Shown one piece after another: positions 752-5,677 of a stretch of DNA of 46,941 bases. Each line of letters starts with the position of its first letter. The stretch's first letter is position 1. Under the pieces are notes generated by a model, which was given only the letters and a program-made list of their open reading frames with translations, was not told where the DNA came from and did no database searches. Made by a program: the position numbers and the translations under genes. The stretch spans positions 1 through 46,941 of the forward strand of contig VGSQ01000012.1 in NCBI GenBank assembly GCA_016874975.1, in the 5' to 3' direction. This DNA comes from Deltaproteobacteria bacterium (lineage in GTDB: Bacteria; Desulfobacterota; Desulfobaccia; Desulfobaccales; 0-14-0-80-60-11).

Positions 752-780
752 TTGACGGTCTACCAGGGTTGTGTTTCAAT
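752..780 (+). promoter_or_regulatory. Candidate sigma-70 promoter of the RiPP operon
   Basis: TTGACG (752-757) and TTCAAT (775-780) are separated by 17 bases and lie about 30 bases before the first start codon of the operon. The -35 box matches well and the -10 box weakly. No other candidate was seen between the tRNA terminator and the gene at 812. Confidence 0.35.
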
Positions 781-811
781 GACAGCAGACCATATTTATA
801 AGGAGGACAAA

Positions 812-1261
812 ATGAAAGGTAAGCGCATGATCAAGCTGGCGGTGCTTTCCACCATCTTGAGCTTCCTGCTGGTAATCCCCGCCCTGGGTCAGGTGACTGA
901 GGATTTGGGGAAAAAGCTCTGTGAGTTTAAAGCGAAGACCTTCAAAGAGTTGAAGATCTCTTCGGACAACGAAAAGAAGCTCACAGAGATGGAAGAAAAG
1001 TGTATGACGGCGCGTCAAGAAATCCTTGCCAGGTTAAAGAAAAATAAAGAAGACTTGCAGGCCGCGTTGGCCGCACCCAACCCTGACGAGGCAAAAGTCA
1101 AGGCTCTGATCAAAGCCTTCAATGCCGCGCAGGTTGATTTGTTTAATTCATATAAGAGTGAACTGGACGCGGAGTTGGCCTTAATGAATCCGATTCAGCA
1201 AGGCAAATATCTGATGGCCTTGGAGCGCTGGCGCTTAGATGTTTGTCTGCCGACGCACTGA
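812..1261 (+). CDS. Spy/CpxP-like periplasmic protein
   Basis: A 149-residue secreted protein. The start at 812 is set by AGGAGG at 801-806; longer upstream reading would spoil the signal peptide. Residues 1-26 form a signal peptide (MKGKRMIKLA, a hydrophobic core, then PALGQ). The mature part is helical and charged, with AAPNPDEAKVKALI and a late NPIQQGKYLMAL segment, as in Spy/CpxP-type periplasmic proteins (Spy is a chaperone, CpxP a stress-response modulator, ZraP a zinc binder). The stop codon overlaps the ribosome-binding site of the next gene, a Trp-rich peptide, so the two are almost certainly co-transcribed. A role in holding that peptide after export is inference. Two Cys lie in the mature part (CEFK, EEKC) and one near the C-terminus. 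Confidence 0.7.
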   Translation: MKGKRMIKLAVLSTILSFLLVIPALGQVTEDLGKKLCEFKAKTFKELKISSDNEKKLTEMEEKCMTARQEILARLKKNKEDLQAALAAPNPDEAKVKALIKAFNAAQVDLFNSYKSELDAELALMNPIQQGKYLMALERWRLDVCLPTH

Positions 1262-1271
1262 GGAGGACACC

Positions 1272-1457
1272 ATGGCTGTGGAAAAACAAGAGGCCCGGGT
1301 TAAGAATAGGGTCCTCCAGGAACTCCTGGAGGAAATCCGCCAGGAAGAAGAGACGCGGGTGGCATTCCCGTACTGGGGCAACTGGTGGAACTGGTGGAAC
1401 TGGCGCAACTGGCGCAACTGGCGCAACTGGCTCAACTGGTTTAACTGGTGGACTTGA
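1272..1457 (+). CDS. Putative RiPP precursor with (Asn-Trp-X)8 core
   Basis: A 61-residue peptide starting at an ATG five bases after a strong AGGAGG (1261-1266). Residues 1-33 are a charged, helix-prone leader (VLQELLEEIRQEEETRV). After YWG come eight exact Asn-Trp-X triplets (residues 37-60) with X = W, W, R, R, R, L, F, W, then a final Thr. Twelve of 61 residues are Trp. Two radical SAM/SPASM enzymes and an ABC exporter follow, the usual setting of radical-SAM RiPP precursors. Radical SAM maturases of the three-residue cyclophane (triceptide) group join an aromatic residue to a residue two positions on; here every Trp-X-Asn step would fit such a pattern, and Trp-Asn-Trp also occurs in darobactin. 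Which bonds form here is unknown. I know of no named family with this core. Confidence 0.75.
   Translation: MAVEKQEARVKNRVLQELLEEIRQEEETRVAFPYWGNWWNWWNWRNWRNWRNWLNWFNWWT
1380..1451 (+). repeat. Eight tandem 9-bp units coding Asn-Trp-X
   Basis: Eight in-frame 9-base units of AACTGG plus one variable codon (TGG, TGG, CGC, CGC, CGC, CTC, TTT, TGG). The six leading bases are identical in all eight, so the array is young or under strong purification. Copy number could change by slippage without breaking the frame. Confidence 0.9.
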
Positions 1458-1529
1458 AATACTACTACCTCATTCTTTGAAAGGCCGGGATGCGAAAATC
1501 TAATGCAACCCTTTCCTAAAGGAGGAGTC

Positions 1530-1560
1530 AGGGGGATTGGCCAGATCGTCCAATCCCCCT
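1530..1560 (+). promoter_or_regulatory. Hairpin between precursor and maturase genes
   Basis: An 11-bp perfect stem (AGGGGGATTGG with its complement at 1550-1560) around a nine-base loop lies 73 bases after the precursor stop. There is no T tract after it, so it may be a partial terminator or an RNA-stabilising stem that gives more precursor than enzyme message. The same G/C palindrome style occurs as dispersed repeats elsewhere in the window, so it may simply be one of those. Confidence 0.45.
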
Positions 1561-1639
1561 AATTCCGCCCTCCGGCAAAGGGGGTAATTATCGGCAGACT
1601 TAACCCCTCCTGGACGATTCCAGATTTCTCTTTTCCGTC

Positions 1640-2902
1640 ATGGACGATCTCTTTCTCACACCACCCTACGTTCCCCAGGGGGACCAGCATCTCCCGGTGG
1701 TGCCTCAGATCCAGGTAACCCGGAACTGCAACCTGGCGTGCGGGTATTGCTTCCAGGACCATTCCGGGGGTATCATCGGCCTCTCCACGGTGGAGACGAT
1801 TCTCCGCCGCGTCATCGCCCATAATCTGGCCGTTGATCCTTTCAATAAGACAATCCAGGTCTACTGGCACGGCGGTGAGCCGCTGCTGGCGGGCCTCGAT
1901 TTTTATCGCGCCGTCATCCGCCTGGAGGCTCAGTATCCCGAGCTGTCTTTTCAGAACCGCATTCAGACCAACGGCACCCTCATGACCGAGGAGATGGCTC
2001 GCTTCCTCGCCGACCATCATTTTCAGGTGGGCTTCAGCATCGATGGGCCCCAGGACATCCACGATCTCTACCGGCGCTTCCGCGGGTCCCGGGCCGCAAC
2101 CTACGAGGCTGCCCGGCGGGGCCTGGAATGCTACCGGGGGCATGCCGGGGTTGACCGCGTGGCCGTGATTGCCGTGGTTACCCGGGCGTCCATCCACCGC
2201 GCCGCCGAGCTGTTTGAATTTTTCAAGCAATTGCGGGCGGTCGTCCAACTGGATATCTACGATGTGCGCTGGCTGGACCTGCTCCAGGAAGGCGGCCGGG
2301 TGGCCGGGTGGTCGGACTTCGCCCCTCGGCCGGACGAAGTGGGACGATTCCTCATCGAATTGTTTGATCTCTGGTTCTGGGATCAGGACGGTCTGGTGGA
2401 TTTCAACGAATTGCGGCAGGAAGTCAAATTGGCCCTGCAACCGGAAATCAATCTGGGCGACCCCTACGACAAGAAGCGGTGCGACTTCCGGCGCCTGATT
2501 TTCGCCCCCGACGGCCTGGTGTTCAGTTGCGACCAGTGGGTGAACGATGCCCAGACGGCCCTGGGGGAGATCCACCGGGATTCCCTGGAGACCATTCTGA
2601 CGAACAAAGAAGTCCTGTGGGAAAAGATGAAGCAGCGTCTGCGGCGCTCGGGGAAACATATGGCCTGCGGCGGCTGTGAATGGGGCCGGCAGTGCGGCGG
2701 CGGCTGTTTCTCCTGCATGAAATACAACGCCATGCTGCTGCGCGCCCGGGCCGCGGGGCTGCCCGACGACCGCTGGGTGGACGCCGTCCTCCCCCCCGTC
2801 TGGGAGGAGATCCGCGGGGAGACCTACTTCTGTGAGGGGCTGAGAGCTTTCCGCCGCCACCTGCAGGAAGCCGTCCGGCGGGAGCTTGCCGATGTCGGTT
2901 GA
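1640..2902 (+). CDS. Radical SAM/SPASM peptide maturase 1
   Basis: A 420-residue radical SAM enzyme, expected to modify the Trp-rich peptide encoded upstream. The [4Fe-4S]/SAM motif is C30-x3-C34-x2-C37 (CNLACGYC). WHGGEPLL (76-83) and the SIDGPQDIHD segment (133-142) are typical of the anaerobic sulfatase-maturase-like branch that includes RiPP cyclophane-forming enzymes. The C-terminal SPASM region carries Cys 281, 297, 343, 346, 352, 356, 359 and 398, enough for auxiliary clusters. The start ATG has no clear ribosome-binding site, unlike the precursor, which suggests lower expression; an in-frame stop at 1601 limits extension. It overlaps the start of the second maturase. The family is secure; the substrate is inferred from context. 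Confidence 0.85.
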   Translation: MDDLFLTPPYVPQGDQHLPVVPQIQVTRNCNLACGYCFQDHSGGIIGLSTVETILRRVIAHNLAVDPFNKTIQVYWHGGEPLLAGLDFYRAVIRLEAQYPELSFQNRIQTNGTLMTEEMARFLADHHFQVGFSIDGPQDIHDLYRRFRGSRAATYEAARRGLECYRGHAGVDRVAVIAVVTRASIHRAAELFEFFKQLRAVVQLDIYDVRWLDLLQEGGRVAGWSDFAPRPDEVGRFLIELFDLWFWDQDGLVDFNELRQEVKLALQPEINLGDPYDKKRCDFRRLIFAPDGLVFSCDQWVNDAQTALGEIHRDSLETILTNKEVLWEKMKQRLRRSGKHMACGGCEWGRQCGGGCFSCMKYNAMLLRARAAGLPDDRWVDAVLPPVWEEIRGETYFCEGLRAFRRHLQEAVRRELADVG

Positions 2903-4001
2903 GGCGGACGGCGCCTTTACCCTGATTCTGGAGCCGGTCAAGGGCTGCAATCTCTCCTGCCGCTACTGCTATGCGGACACCGCCGGGGACGGCGTCATGA
3001 GCCGGCGGACGTTGGAGACGGCCCTGGAGAAAACGGCCCGCCATGCCGAGGACCGGGGTTTCCGGGAAATCCATATCCTCTGGCACGGGGGCGAACCCCT
3101 CCTGGCGGGGCTCGGCTTTTTCCGGGCGGCGCTGCAGATGCTGGCCGGCCTGTCCTCGGGCCTGAGATTCCATCACTATCTCCAGACCAACGGCCTGCTC
3201 CTCGATCCTGATTTCTGCGCCTTTTTCCGGGAACACCGGTTCCAGATCGGCCTCAGCCTCGACGGCCCCCAAGACCTGCATGACTCCATGCGCGTCGGGG
3301 CAGACGGGCAGGGAAGCCACGCCCGGGTTCTGGAGAAAGTCCGCCTTTTGGAAGAGCAGGGCGTGTCGGCGGGGTTCAACGCGGTGGTCACCCGGCGCAG
3401 CCTGGGCCGGGAGCAGGCCCTCTACCGGTACTTTCAGGGCCTGGGGTATGGTTTCCGGGTAAACCCCCTGATTCCGGGGCGCCACCCCGAGGCCTCTGCC
3501 CCCTCTCTGCTGCAGCCGGGGGAATACGGCGCTTTCCTGTGCCGCTTGTTCGACGCCTGGACCGGCACTGCGGGCCGGCGGGTCATGGTGTCGCCTCTGG
3601 ACCTGTACCTCAGGGCCGTTCTTGCCGGCGCGCCTTACGAATGTCAGCAGCGGGAAACCTGTGTGGGCACGCACCTCGGCGTCAAACCCTCGGGGGATGC
3701 CGTGCTGTGCTGCCGGTTTGAGACCCATCCCCTGGGGAATATCCACGATCGGGAAATCCGGGACTTGTGGGCCTCCCCCTTTTGCGAAGAGGTGCGGCGG
3801 CGAGCCGAGACGCTTTCCGACTGTCACTCCTGTAAATACTGGTCAATCTGCCACGGCGGGTGTCCTCTCAACGCCTTGGTGTTTTCTCAGGACCATCTGG
3901 CCAAGGACCCTTTCTGCAAGGATTATCAGCAGATCTTTGGAAAAATCCAGCGGGCTCTGGCAGAGCTGCACAAAGCCTCCCACCCCCGACCGGAATCATG
4001 A
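2892..4001 (+). CDS. Radical SAM/SPASM peptide maturase 2
   Basis: A 369-residue second radical SAM enzyme, clearly different in sequence from its neighbour. The SAM motif is C19-x3-C23-x2-C26 (CNLSCRYC), with WHGGEPLL at 64-71 and SLDGPQDLHD at 122-131. The SPASM region has Cys 251, 257, 273, 274, 298, 311, 314, 320, 324 and 342, including CHSCKYWSICHGGC. The ATG at 2892 lies inside the end of the previous gene, with GGGAG upstream; a TTG six bases earlier is possible. Its stop overlaps the ABC transporter start as ATGA, so the three are translationally coupled. Two maturases for one peptide suggest two crosslink types or two substrate sites, which is inference. Confidence 0.85.
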   Translation: MSVEADGAFTLILEPVKGCNLSCRYCYADTAGDGVMSRRTLETALEKTARHAEDRGFREIHILWHGGEPLLAGLGFFRAALQMLAGLSSGLRFHHYLQTNGLLLDPDFCAFFREHRFQIGLSLDGPQDLHDSMRVGADGQGSHARVLEKVRLLEEQGVSAGFNAVVTRRSLGREQALYRYFQGLGYGFRVNPLIPGRHPEASAPSLLQPGEYGAFLCRLFDAWTGTAGRRVMVSPLDLYLRAVLAGAPYECQQRETCVGTHLGVKPSGDAVLCCRFETHPLGNIHDREIRDLWASPFCEEVRRRAETLSDCHSCKYWSICHGGCPLNALVFSQDHLAKDPFCKDYQQIFGKIQRALAELHKASHPRPES

Positions 4002-5677
4002 GAGCCTGGATTACCGGCATCATCTCCCGCTATCGTCTGCCGTTGACGGTCCTGGTGGTCATCCAGTTGGGCTGCGGGGTGCTCATCGCGCTGCAGCCGC
4101 GCTACTATCAACAGCTGATCAGCCTTGTCGTCGCCGGCCGATACGAGCATCTTTGGAGCTCAGGGCTGCCCCTGATCGCGCAGCTTGCCCTGATCTTCAT
4201 TGCCATCGCGGTGCTGCAGGGGATCAGCGGCTATACCGGCAGCGTCTTTTCTTTCAGTCTGCTCAAGCAACTGCAAACCGATTTTTTCGACAAGGCCAGC
4301 CGTCTGCCCCTGGGCTATTTCCAGAAGCAATCCGCGGGGGAATTTTTCACCAGATTCAACAGCGATATTGCCCAAGCCCAGCGGTTCTTCGCCGATTTCC
4401 TGCCCGGTGTCGGCCGCGAACTCATCACCGCGATCGTGGTGACGGTCATCCTGTTCTATTTCTGCCCGGCCTCGCTTACCATTGCGGCCCTGGTCATCGT
4501 GGTCCTCACCACGCTGCTGGTGTCCATGCTCCACCGGATTATGGGTTTTTATGCCCGGGCTCAGCGGGACACGTGGAGTCAGATACAGCGGGTCTTCGAT
4601 GAAACGGTCCAGGGGATCGACACCGTCAAGGTGCTGGCCGCCGAGGACCAGCAGGCCGCCCAATTCCAGCGGCACACCACCTGGCTGAAGAAGCTGTCCA
4701 TACGGGCCGGGACGGTGCTCGCGGTGTTTTCCCCCGGAATTGAGCTGCTCACCCAGTTCGGCGGCCTGGGATTGGTGGCCCTGGCTTATTACCTGATCGC
4801 CCGGGGCCAGTTGGGTCTCGAGCCCTTCTTGCTTTTTTTCTTTTATGCCACCCTCTTGCAGATGTCGGTCACCCAGCTCACCAGATTGCTGGCCACCGTG
4901 CAGCCGGAACTGACCGGGATGCGACATCTGTCCGGCTTTCTCGCCGAAGCCCCGGAGGCCGAAGAGAGCCACGCCACGGCCACCCTGCCGGGCCGGGCGG
5001 TGGCCATCGAGGTGTCCGGCCTGACCTTCGGCTACCCGGGAGGGCGGCCCCTCTACCACCGGGCGGACCTGTTTATTCCCGCCCATGCCGTCACCGTCAT
5101 CGGCGGCGAAAGCGGCAGCGGCAAATCCACCCTCATCAATCTGCTGCTCCGTCTGTATGCGCCCCAGGAAGGGGTCATCTCCATCGGCGGGATCGACATC
5201 CGTCGGATTCCCCGCACCGAACTGCGGCGCAAAGTGGGGGTTGTCACCCAGAATCATTTTATTTTCCAGGACACGCTGCGGGAAAACCTCCTCATCGCGC
5301 AGCCCGATGCCACGGACGCACAGATTATGCAGGCCCTGGAAGGCGCGCAGTTGAAGGACTTTGTGGCCCGTCTGCCTCAGGGCCTGGAAACCGTGATGGA
5401 CCCGCGCGGCGCGGGAACCAGCACCGGGGAGCGGCAGCGGCTCTGCATCGCCAGGCTGCTCTTGAGAGAGTCGCCCATCATGATCCTGGATGAACCCTGG
5501 TCCAACCTCGACGACCGGGCCCGCACCCTCCTGGCCGAAGTCGTCAACGCCTGCAAAAGCAGAGCCACCATTCTGATCCTCACCCATGAGCGCCATCCGG
5601 CACTCGCCATTGACAATCTGTACCATCTGGACGGAGCCCGGGGCATCTTCCGGGAAGAGGACCCTGCCGGGGGCTAG
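3998..5677 (+). CDS. ABC exporter (fused membrane and ATPase domains)
   Basis: A 559-residue half-transporter, probably a homodimer exporting the modified peptide. Residues 1-300 hold about six membrane segments of the type I exporter fold, and 335-559 the ATPase domain: Walker A GESGSGKST (370-378), Q-loop near 418, Walker B IMILDEP (494-500), H-loop LTHERH (528-533). The signature motif reads STGERQR instead of SGGQRQR, an unusual Gly-to-Thr change. There is no N-terminal C39 peptidase domain, so leader removal must be done by another protein. The start is the ATG overlapping the previous stop; an upstream in-frame extension to 3860 only runs through the maturase gene. Substrate is inferred from operon position. 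Confidence 0.85.
   Translation: MRAWITGIISRYRLPLTVLVVIQLGCGVLIALQPRYYQQLISLVVAGRYEHLWSSGLPLIAQLALIFIAIAVLQGISGYTGSVFSFSLLKQLQTDFFDKASRLPLGYFQKQSAGEFFTRFNSDIAQAQRFFADFLPGVGRELITAIVVTVILFYFCPASLTIAALVIVVLTTLLVSMLHRIMGFYARAQRDTWSQIQRVFDETVQGIDTVKVLAAEDQQAAQFQRHTTWLKKLSIRAGTVLAVFSPGIELLTQFGGLGLVALAYYLIARGQLGLEPFLLFFFYATLLQMSVTQLTRLLATVQPELTGMRHLSGFLAEAPEAEESHATATLPGRAVAIEVSGLTFGYPGGRPLYHRADLFIPAHAVTVIGGESGSGKSTLINLLLRLYAPQEGVISIGGIDIRRIPRTELRRKVGVVTQNHFIFQDTLRENLLIAQPDATDAQIMQALEGAQLKDFVARLPQGLETVMDPRGAGTSTGERQRLCIARLLLRESPIMILDEPWSNLDDRARTLLAEVVNACKSRATILILTHERHPALAIDNLYHLDGARGIFREEDPAGG

Follow-up and report, generated by a model that had tools for sequence, protein, structure and literature searches.

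A predicted triceptide-like operon with an (Asn-Trp-Xaa)n precursor and two radical SAM/SPASM maturases in Desulfobaccales and Desulfobacteraceae-type genomes

Introduction

Several radical S-adenosylmethionine (SAM) enzymes that modify ribosomally synthesized and post-translationally modified peptides (RiPPs) act on short motifs containing Trp. OscB joins C7 of Trp to the C-beta of Asn or Asp, between residues i and i+2, and XncB joins Trp C6 to the C-beta of Arg or Asn (both PMC11002830); Aro-Xaa-Asn has been named as a cyclophane motif (PMC9062424). In actinobacteria, SPASM-modified FxSxx peptides are coupled to TIR/AP-ATPase-TPR proteins, and the peptide was proposed to act as a toxin or as a signal that amplifies the core system (Kaur et al., PMC7159879). 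Here we describe an operon on contig VGSQ01000012.1 of a Deltaproteobacteria bacterium (Desulfobaccales, assembly GCA_016874975.1), in which a small gene ending in an Asn-Trp-Xaa (NWX) repeat precedes two radical SAM/SPASM genes, rSAM1 and rSAM2, and an ATP-binding cassette (ABC) exporter gene. The whole stretch analysed, positions 1 to 46,941 of the forward strand, is referred to as the window, and unattributed coordinates are those of the window.

Results

A conserved precursor linked to two maturases at eight loci

The cassette of precursor, rSAM1, rSAM2 and ABC exporter is present at eight loci, being divided between two contigs in one genome (G017). Besides the window, four genomes of its family have the cassette, each with a matching precursor upstream of an rSAM1 of 76-79% identity. 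The cassette also occurs, with an rSAM1 of 50-56% identity, in three genomes of the Desulfospira family, one of them that of Desulfospira joergensenii DSM 10085. The Desulfospira locus was reached through a pattern scan for NWX runs and the two further loci of its family through protein search. That homologous precursors should stand beside homologous enzymes in other genomes had been set beforehand as a test of the preliminary description of this DNA, and the same frame is indeed retained in eight genomes. Since precursors with a conserved leader and a variable core are linked to SPASM maturases at all eight loci, the locus is, judged by its sequence, a RiPP operon in which these maturases come as a pair. 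In the window it forms a five-gene unit on the + strand (812-5677), headed by a gene for a Spy/CnrX-like protein. The features are as follows.

812-1261, +: Spy/CpxP/CnrX-like helical secreted protein, 149 aa, with a signal-like N-terminal segment; operon gene 1 in the window's family
1261-1266, +: ribosome-binding site AGGAGG of the precursor, from the sequence; overlaps the stop codon of the Spy/CnrX-like gene
1272-1373, +: precursor leader, residues 1-34, with conserved ..KN..L.E[IL]..EI..E......FP[YFH], from the alignment of eight precursors
1374-1457, +: precursor core, W-G-N and then W-X-N units (8 W-X-N triplets), ending in W-W-T-stop, from sequence and alignment
1509-1581, +: long imperfect hairpin in the gap between precursor and rSAM1 (folding z -2.65)
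1640-2902, +: rSAM1, radical SAM/SPASM maturase, 420 aa, CxxxCxxC at residues 30-37, divergent SPASM domain (Pfam, alignment)
2892-4001, +: rSAM2, radical SAM/SPASM maturase, 369 aa, full anSME-type SPASM cysteine set (Pfam, alignment)
3998-5677, +: ABC exporter with transmembrane and ATPase domains (Pfam); orthologues at all loci
580-633, +: duplicate of the 3' part of tRNA-Leu(CAG), from anticodon loop to CCA; att-like scar about 180 bp ahead of the operon

The precursor of 61 aa, MAVEKQEARVKNRVLQELLEEIRQEEETRVAFPYWG(NWX)8..T, is encoded by the open reading frame 1272-1457 and has its own strong ribosome-binding site, AGGAGG, 5 nt ahead of the ATG. Both this and the eight exact Asn-Trp-Xaa triplets at its end had been described from the sequence and were confirmed. 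An NWX repeat alone is weak evidence for a peptide substrate because such runs are common: a genome-wide pattern scan for four or more units returned at least 117 stretches, and most of those listed are apparent 9-bp DNA repeats in one frame without a radical SAM neighbour. The eight precursors, on the other hand, align across the leader, with K11, L15, E21, I22, E25, F32, P33 and W35 invariant, and carry 7-9 Asn-Trp units each. Over the 62 units of the eight genomes N and W never change while X is any of twelve residues (R, G, W, H, M, F, L, N, V, S, I or Q), and Asn is encoded by both AAC (53 times) and AAT (9 times). Differences in the leader region fall on codon positions 1, 2 and 3 in the ratio 44/52/88, with the third position highest in the precursor frame. 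The conserved leader, the linked enzymes, the fixed N and W beside a changing X, the use of two Asn codons and the third-position excess together exclude a chance origin and indicate that the precursor frame is translated and selected.

The register of the core can be deduced from how the run begins. In all eight precursors it opens with Trp-Xaa-Asn (FP[YFH]W-[GNR]-N), which makes (W-X-N)n the likely unit; an incomplete last unit is possible at the C-terminus, where the precursors end in NWWT, NWWN or NW. Read in this way, the core consists of contiguous three-residue blocks in which every Trp and Asn is used once. The preliminary description had counted Trp-Xaa-Asn among the possible crosslinks, which in its view would make the core a rigid rod, a shape that stays hypothetical. 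The predicted unit does match published triceptide chemistry (OscB, PMC11002830). An aromatic-Xaa-Asn motif adjoining a SPASM enzyme, the sequence hallmark of triceptides, is found here with a W-X-N run in 8/8 precursors. If the inferred chemistry holds, the eight W-X-N triplets of the window peptide would amount to a mass shift of up to -16.1 Da. The suggestion that X forms a programmed side-chain face fared less well, as the poor conservation of X between genomes argues against a fixed side-chain programme.

Maturases, exporter and intergenic elements

Pfam detects Radical_SAM and SPASM domains in rSAM1 and rSAM2, and ABC_membrane and ABC_tran in the exporter. In alignments of eight sequences both enzymes retain an intact CxxxCxxC motif and SPASM cysteines; the full anSME-type set of rSAM2 is invariant, and one SPASM cysteine of rSAM1 is replaced by His in 2/8 sequences. 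The best NCBIfam scores are 178 bits (anSME) and 176 bits (DynA) for rSAM1 and 252 bits (DynA) and 229 bits (anSME) for rSAM2. A C39 leader-peptidase domain was not detected in the ABC exporter.

The two radical SAM/SPASM genes and the exporter lie downstream on the same strand where they had been placed. Their described overlap holds for the ends of rSAM1, rSAM2 and the ABC gene and not for the precursor, which is followed by a gap of 182 bp before rSAM1. Likewise, the operon was accurately described with respect to precursor, enzymes and exporter, and the upstream gene for the 149-aa Spy/CnrX-like protein (812-1261) had been left out. Stable hairpins also occur in the precursor-rSAM1 gap of four related cassettes (z -4.2 to -1.6). 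Across the five cassettes (window, L015, L016, L017 and L018) the hairpin sequences are unrelated and belong to at least two repeat types; they may set the stoichiometry of precursor to enzyme or represent independent insertions resembling repetitive extragenic palindromes (REP-like). An Rfam scan of the operon gave no element at the gathering threshold, and a promoter scan of the operon found none.

Different partner genes in the two families

The 149-aa protein scores 29.1 bits with Metal_resist (cut-off 29.2) and 17.5 bits with LTXXQ. Its AlphaFold2 model is all helical (pLDDT 77.5), and the closest PDB folds to this model are the periplasmic metal sensors NccX/CnrX, followed by CpxP, ZraP and Spy, with every match at E>0.001. 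The other four cassettes of the window's family each have an orthologue (48-71% identity) as the next gene ahead of the precursor, so that a Spy/CnrX-like gene heads 5/5 cassettes of this family; their outer flanks share short or local similarity only. Cassette copies reach 260 bits or more, and no paralogue exceeds 168 bits. The Spy/CnrX-like family is expanded in the window's family, sometimes in tandem (L166:3290-3709 and 4292-4714 in G007; also L167-L169), with no nearby radical SAM gene; no radical SAM neighbour of a paralogue was found in the eight loci examined.

At the three Desulfobacteraceae-type loci the Spy/CnrX-like gene is absent and an nSTAND1-TPR gene lies immediately upstream of the precursor on the same strand, at a spacing of 45 bp, 29 bp or with an ATGA overlap. 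In 3/3 of these genomes (6-7 Mb) it is the only nSTAND1 gene. Further genes upstream encode TIR proteins (Desulfospira and G487) or EAD11-TIR and SIR2-EAD11 proteins (G426). Among the three loci the maturases are 48-52% identical, the STAND proteins about 28%, and the TIR proteins are without detectable similarity. The association has thus outlasted either a strong divergence of the module or its replacement, a pattern that resembles that of diversifying conflict modules. The genomic link between this cassette and STAND-TIR/SIR2 genes is new and, by analogy, appears to parallel the actinobacterial Fxs peptide-TIR/ATPase systems. Two of the STAND/TIR operons are headed by a protein of 156-179 aa without Pfam or PADLOC family (L141:13463-13999, - strand; L144:1813-2280, + strand); the two proteins are 63% identical, exceeding the conservation of the maturases or the STAND protein.

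Distribution and mobility

The cassette is sporadic, occurring in 5/22 genomes of the window's family and 3/86 of that of Desulfospira. No further cassette was present in 390 genomes sampled from the order of Desulfospira or in 395 sampled from the window's phylum, and it was absent from two draws of 390-400 genomes that covered the phyla to which L030 and L042 belong. As each draw is a sample and the count of the pattern scan a lower bound (at least 117), more homologues may exist. The intact tRNA-Leu(CAG) gene lies on contig G000:C60 (L150 667-753), and the partial copy at 580-633 suggests that an integrative element ended here, which fits a mobile past without proving one. A search for plasmid carriage of the cassette gave no match. 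A candidate orthologue on viral contigs was discarded, these proteins being distant relatives (23-27% identity) without an obvious NWX precursor; one of them, on an IMG/VR contig (L155:137-1213), is a full-length relative of rSAM1 (27%) with no obvious repeat precursor.

Discussion

We have combined these data in a model for the operon. The precursor would be made with a helical leader, and one or both SPASM enzymes would form an oxidative crosslink between each Trp and the Asn at i+2, converting the W-X-N run into up to eight contiguous three-residue cyclophanes in which Trp and Asn are each used once and X is free. rSAM1 and rSAM2 may divide this labour between them. The ABC exporter would carry the peptide out of the cytoplasm. 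Once exported, it is probably bound or chaperoned, in the cassettes of the window's family, by the secreted Spy/CnrX-like protein. The product would most likely serve microbial conflict as a toxin or signal, because the Desulfobacteraceae relatives of the operon are joined to a STAND NTPase and TIR/SIR2 genes; for the window locus itself the Fxs precedent (PMC7159879) makes this the best available reading by analogy. Overall, we consider it likely that the operon uses its two maturases to make a poly-cyclophane RiPP, which is exported and acts as toxin or signal of a conflict system. A more specific proposal is decidedly tentative and, in our estimation, would probably have to be modified: that a poly-cyclophane of up to eight contiguous W-X-N rings, made by the SPASM pair, is exported as an integral part of a STAND-TIR/SIR2 conflict system of sulfate reducers, in which it serves as toxin or alarm signal, and that the Spy/CnrX-like partner took over in the lineage of the window.

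Several observations weigh against the conflict-related poly-cyclophane. Both enzymes score below the cut-off of every named NCBIfam maturase model, the top model for rSAM2 is DynA, whose published product carries other linkages, and the tree places rSAM1 and rSAM2 outside the GrrM/OscB clade (100/100 support). The structure model of rSAM1 (pLDDT 58) is too poor for comparison. Nor was a protease found that could remove the leader, and at none of the five loci in the window's family, the window locus included, were STAND or TIR genes seen nearby.

The most basic alternative is that the NWX run is just a tandem repeat of the DNA itself and that the short open reading frame encodes no maturase substrate at all. 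Many genomic NWX runs are indeed 9-bp DNA repeats, and a second frame of 86 aa with TGX repeats is open over the precursor region. Yet the leader is ~50% identical across two families, Asn codons vary synonymously while X varies freely, the third-position excess lies in the precursor frame and the linkage to both enzymes is constant. A DNA-repeat origin of the core thus appears strongly disfavoured and would be very surprising. It is easier to imagine that the two SPASM enzymes make something other than W-X-N cyclophanes, such as Trp-O-Trp or Trp(i)-Asn(i+3) links, epimers of Asn or Trp, or other changes that are not crosslinks. DynA is the best NCBIfam model for rSAM2 (252 bits, cut-off 450), DynA and anSME lead for rSAM1, and the presence of a maturase pair suggests more than one modification. 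The register of the core points the other way, since the residue three positions after a Trp is always Trp and never Asn while W-X-N tiles the core perfectly, and neither the DynA nor the DarE cut-off is reached; we therefore hold a different product to be unlikely.

A third possibility concerns function rather than chemistry. The secreted peptide could be related to metal or stress and work with the Spy/CnrX-like protein, in which case the STAND link of the Desulfobacteraceae would be a separate recruitment. The partner in the window's family does have the predicted Spy/CnrX fold, with no STAND or TIR gene nearby, and its paralogues are common there. On the other side, in all three Desulfobacteraceae-type genomes (~6-7 Mb) the only nSTAND1 gene sits exactly at the precursor, and none of the eight paralogue loci examined has a radical SAM neighbour, so that we regard this role as improbable too. 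If the peptide is instead the conflict-related poly-cyclophane, a modified peptide would be placed inside an immune-like NTPase system outside actinobacteria. Desulfospira joergensenii DSM 10085 is a cultured type strain, and the role of such peptides is therefore directly testable there. The precursors also provide a compact natural family of tandem substrates for cyclophane-forming radical enzymes, with N and W fixed and X free, useful for studying iterative crosslinking and the reason for keeping two maturases.

Comparison with known systems

Anaerobic sulfatase-maturating enzymes (anSMEs) provide the closest solved structures for both rSAM1 and rSAM2 (4k36-4k39). The identification as an anaerobic sulfatase maturase was rejected, the cut-off of TIGR03942 being 349 bits against 178 and 229, and the tree separating both enzymes from true anSMEs. 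The DynA and DarE enzymes belong to the same superclade, DynA being the nearest named model to rSAM2, and their products dynobactin and darobactin contain Trp crosslinks; core sequence, repeat number and the two-maturase layout differ, and the scores (DynA 176/252, DarE 93/85 bits for rSAM1/rSAM2) stay below the cut-offs of 450 and 650 bits. HxsA/HxsB/HxsC likewise combine a tripeptide-repeat precursor with a radical SAM pair. The repeat is His-Xaa-Ser there and Asn-Trp-Xaa here, and HxsB scores are 84.1/69.8 bits at a cut-off of 370.

The FxsA/FxsB/FxsC/FxsT systems resemble the Desulfobacteraceae relatives, and not the window locus, in coupling a SPASM peptide to TIR and STAND-type genes. 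They differ in having a C-terminal FxSxx instead of a (W-X-N)n core and the Fxs ATPase instead of nSTAND1, and in the two maturases plus exporter found here. No FxSxx C-terminus is present, and with FxsB (TIGR04269, cut-off 370 bits) rSAM1 and rSAM2 score 79.9 and 119.2 bits. Membership in the GrrM, Fxs, Hxs, DynA/DarE and anSME families was rejected throughout because the respective model criteria are not reached.

A further likeness is to GrrA/OscA with GrrM/OscB (TIGR04260/TIGR04261), where a (W-X-N)n or (NWX)n core adjoins a SPASM radical SAM enzyme. The view that no named class has such a core holds only in part, since a cyanobacterium, alphaproteobacteria and a Bacteroidota metagenome-assembled genome have (NWX)n precursors next to enzymes that exceed the GrrM/OscB cut-off. 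Among the matches listed, loci with an (NWX)n precursor and a radical SAM gene include Leptolyngbya sp. PCC 7375, alphaproteobacteria such as Roseobacter, and the Bacteroidota genome, and the four such enzymes scanned score 363-543 bits with the GrrM/OscB model (cut-off 310). At L028, L030, L036, L037, L060 and L099, GrrA/OscA-like pure (NWX)n precursors stand by GrrM-type enzymes, and several of them escape TIGR04260. The window precursor has no match to TIGR04260 at E up to 10, and rSAM1 and rSAM2 remain below the TIGR04261 cut-off (120.7 and 124.7 against 310 bits). The subfamily may already figure in the tables of the triceptide landscape study (Sugiyama 2022). In contrast to GrrA/OscA the leader is unrelated and lacks a Sec-like hydrophobic N-terminus, and in contrast to GrrM/OscB there are two maturases, not one, and a dedicated ABC exporter. 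By these sequence comparisons, the window system is triceptide-like in its predicted working, yet not a member of the Grr family.

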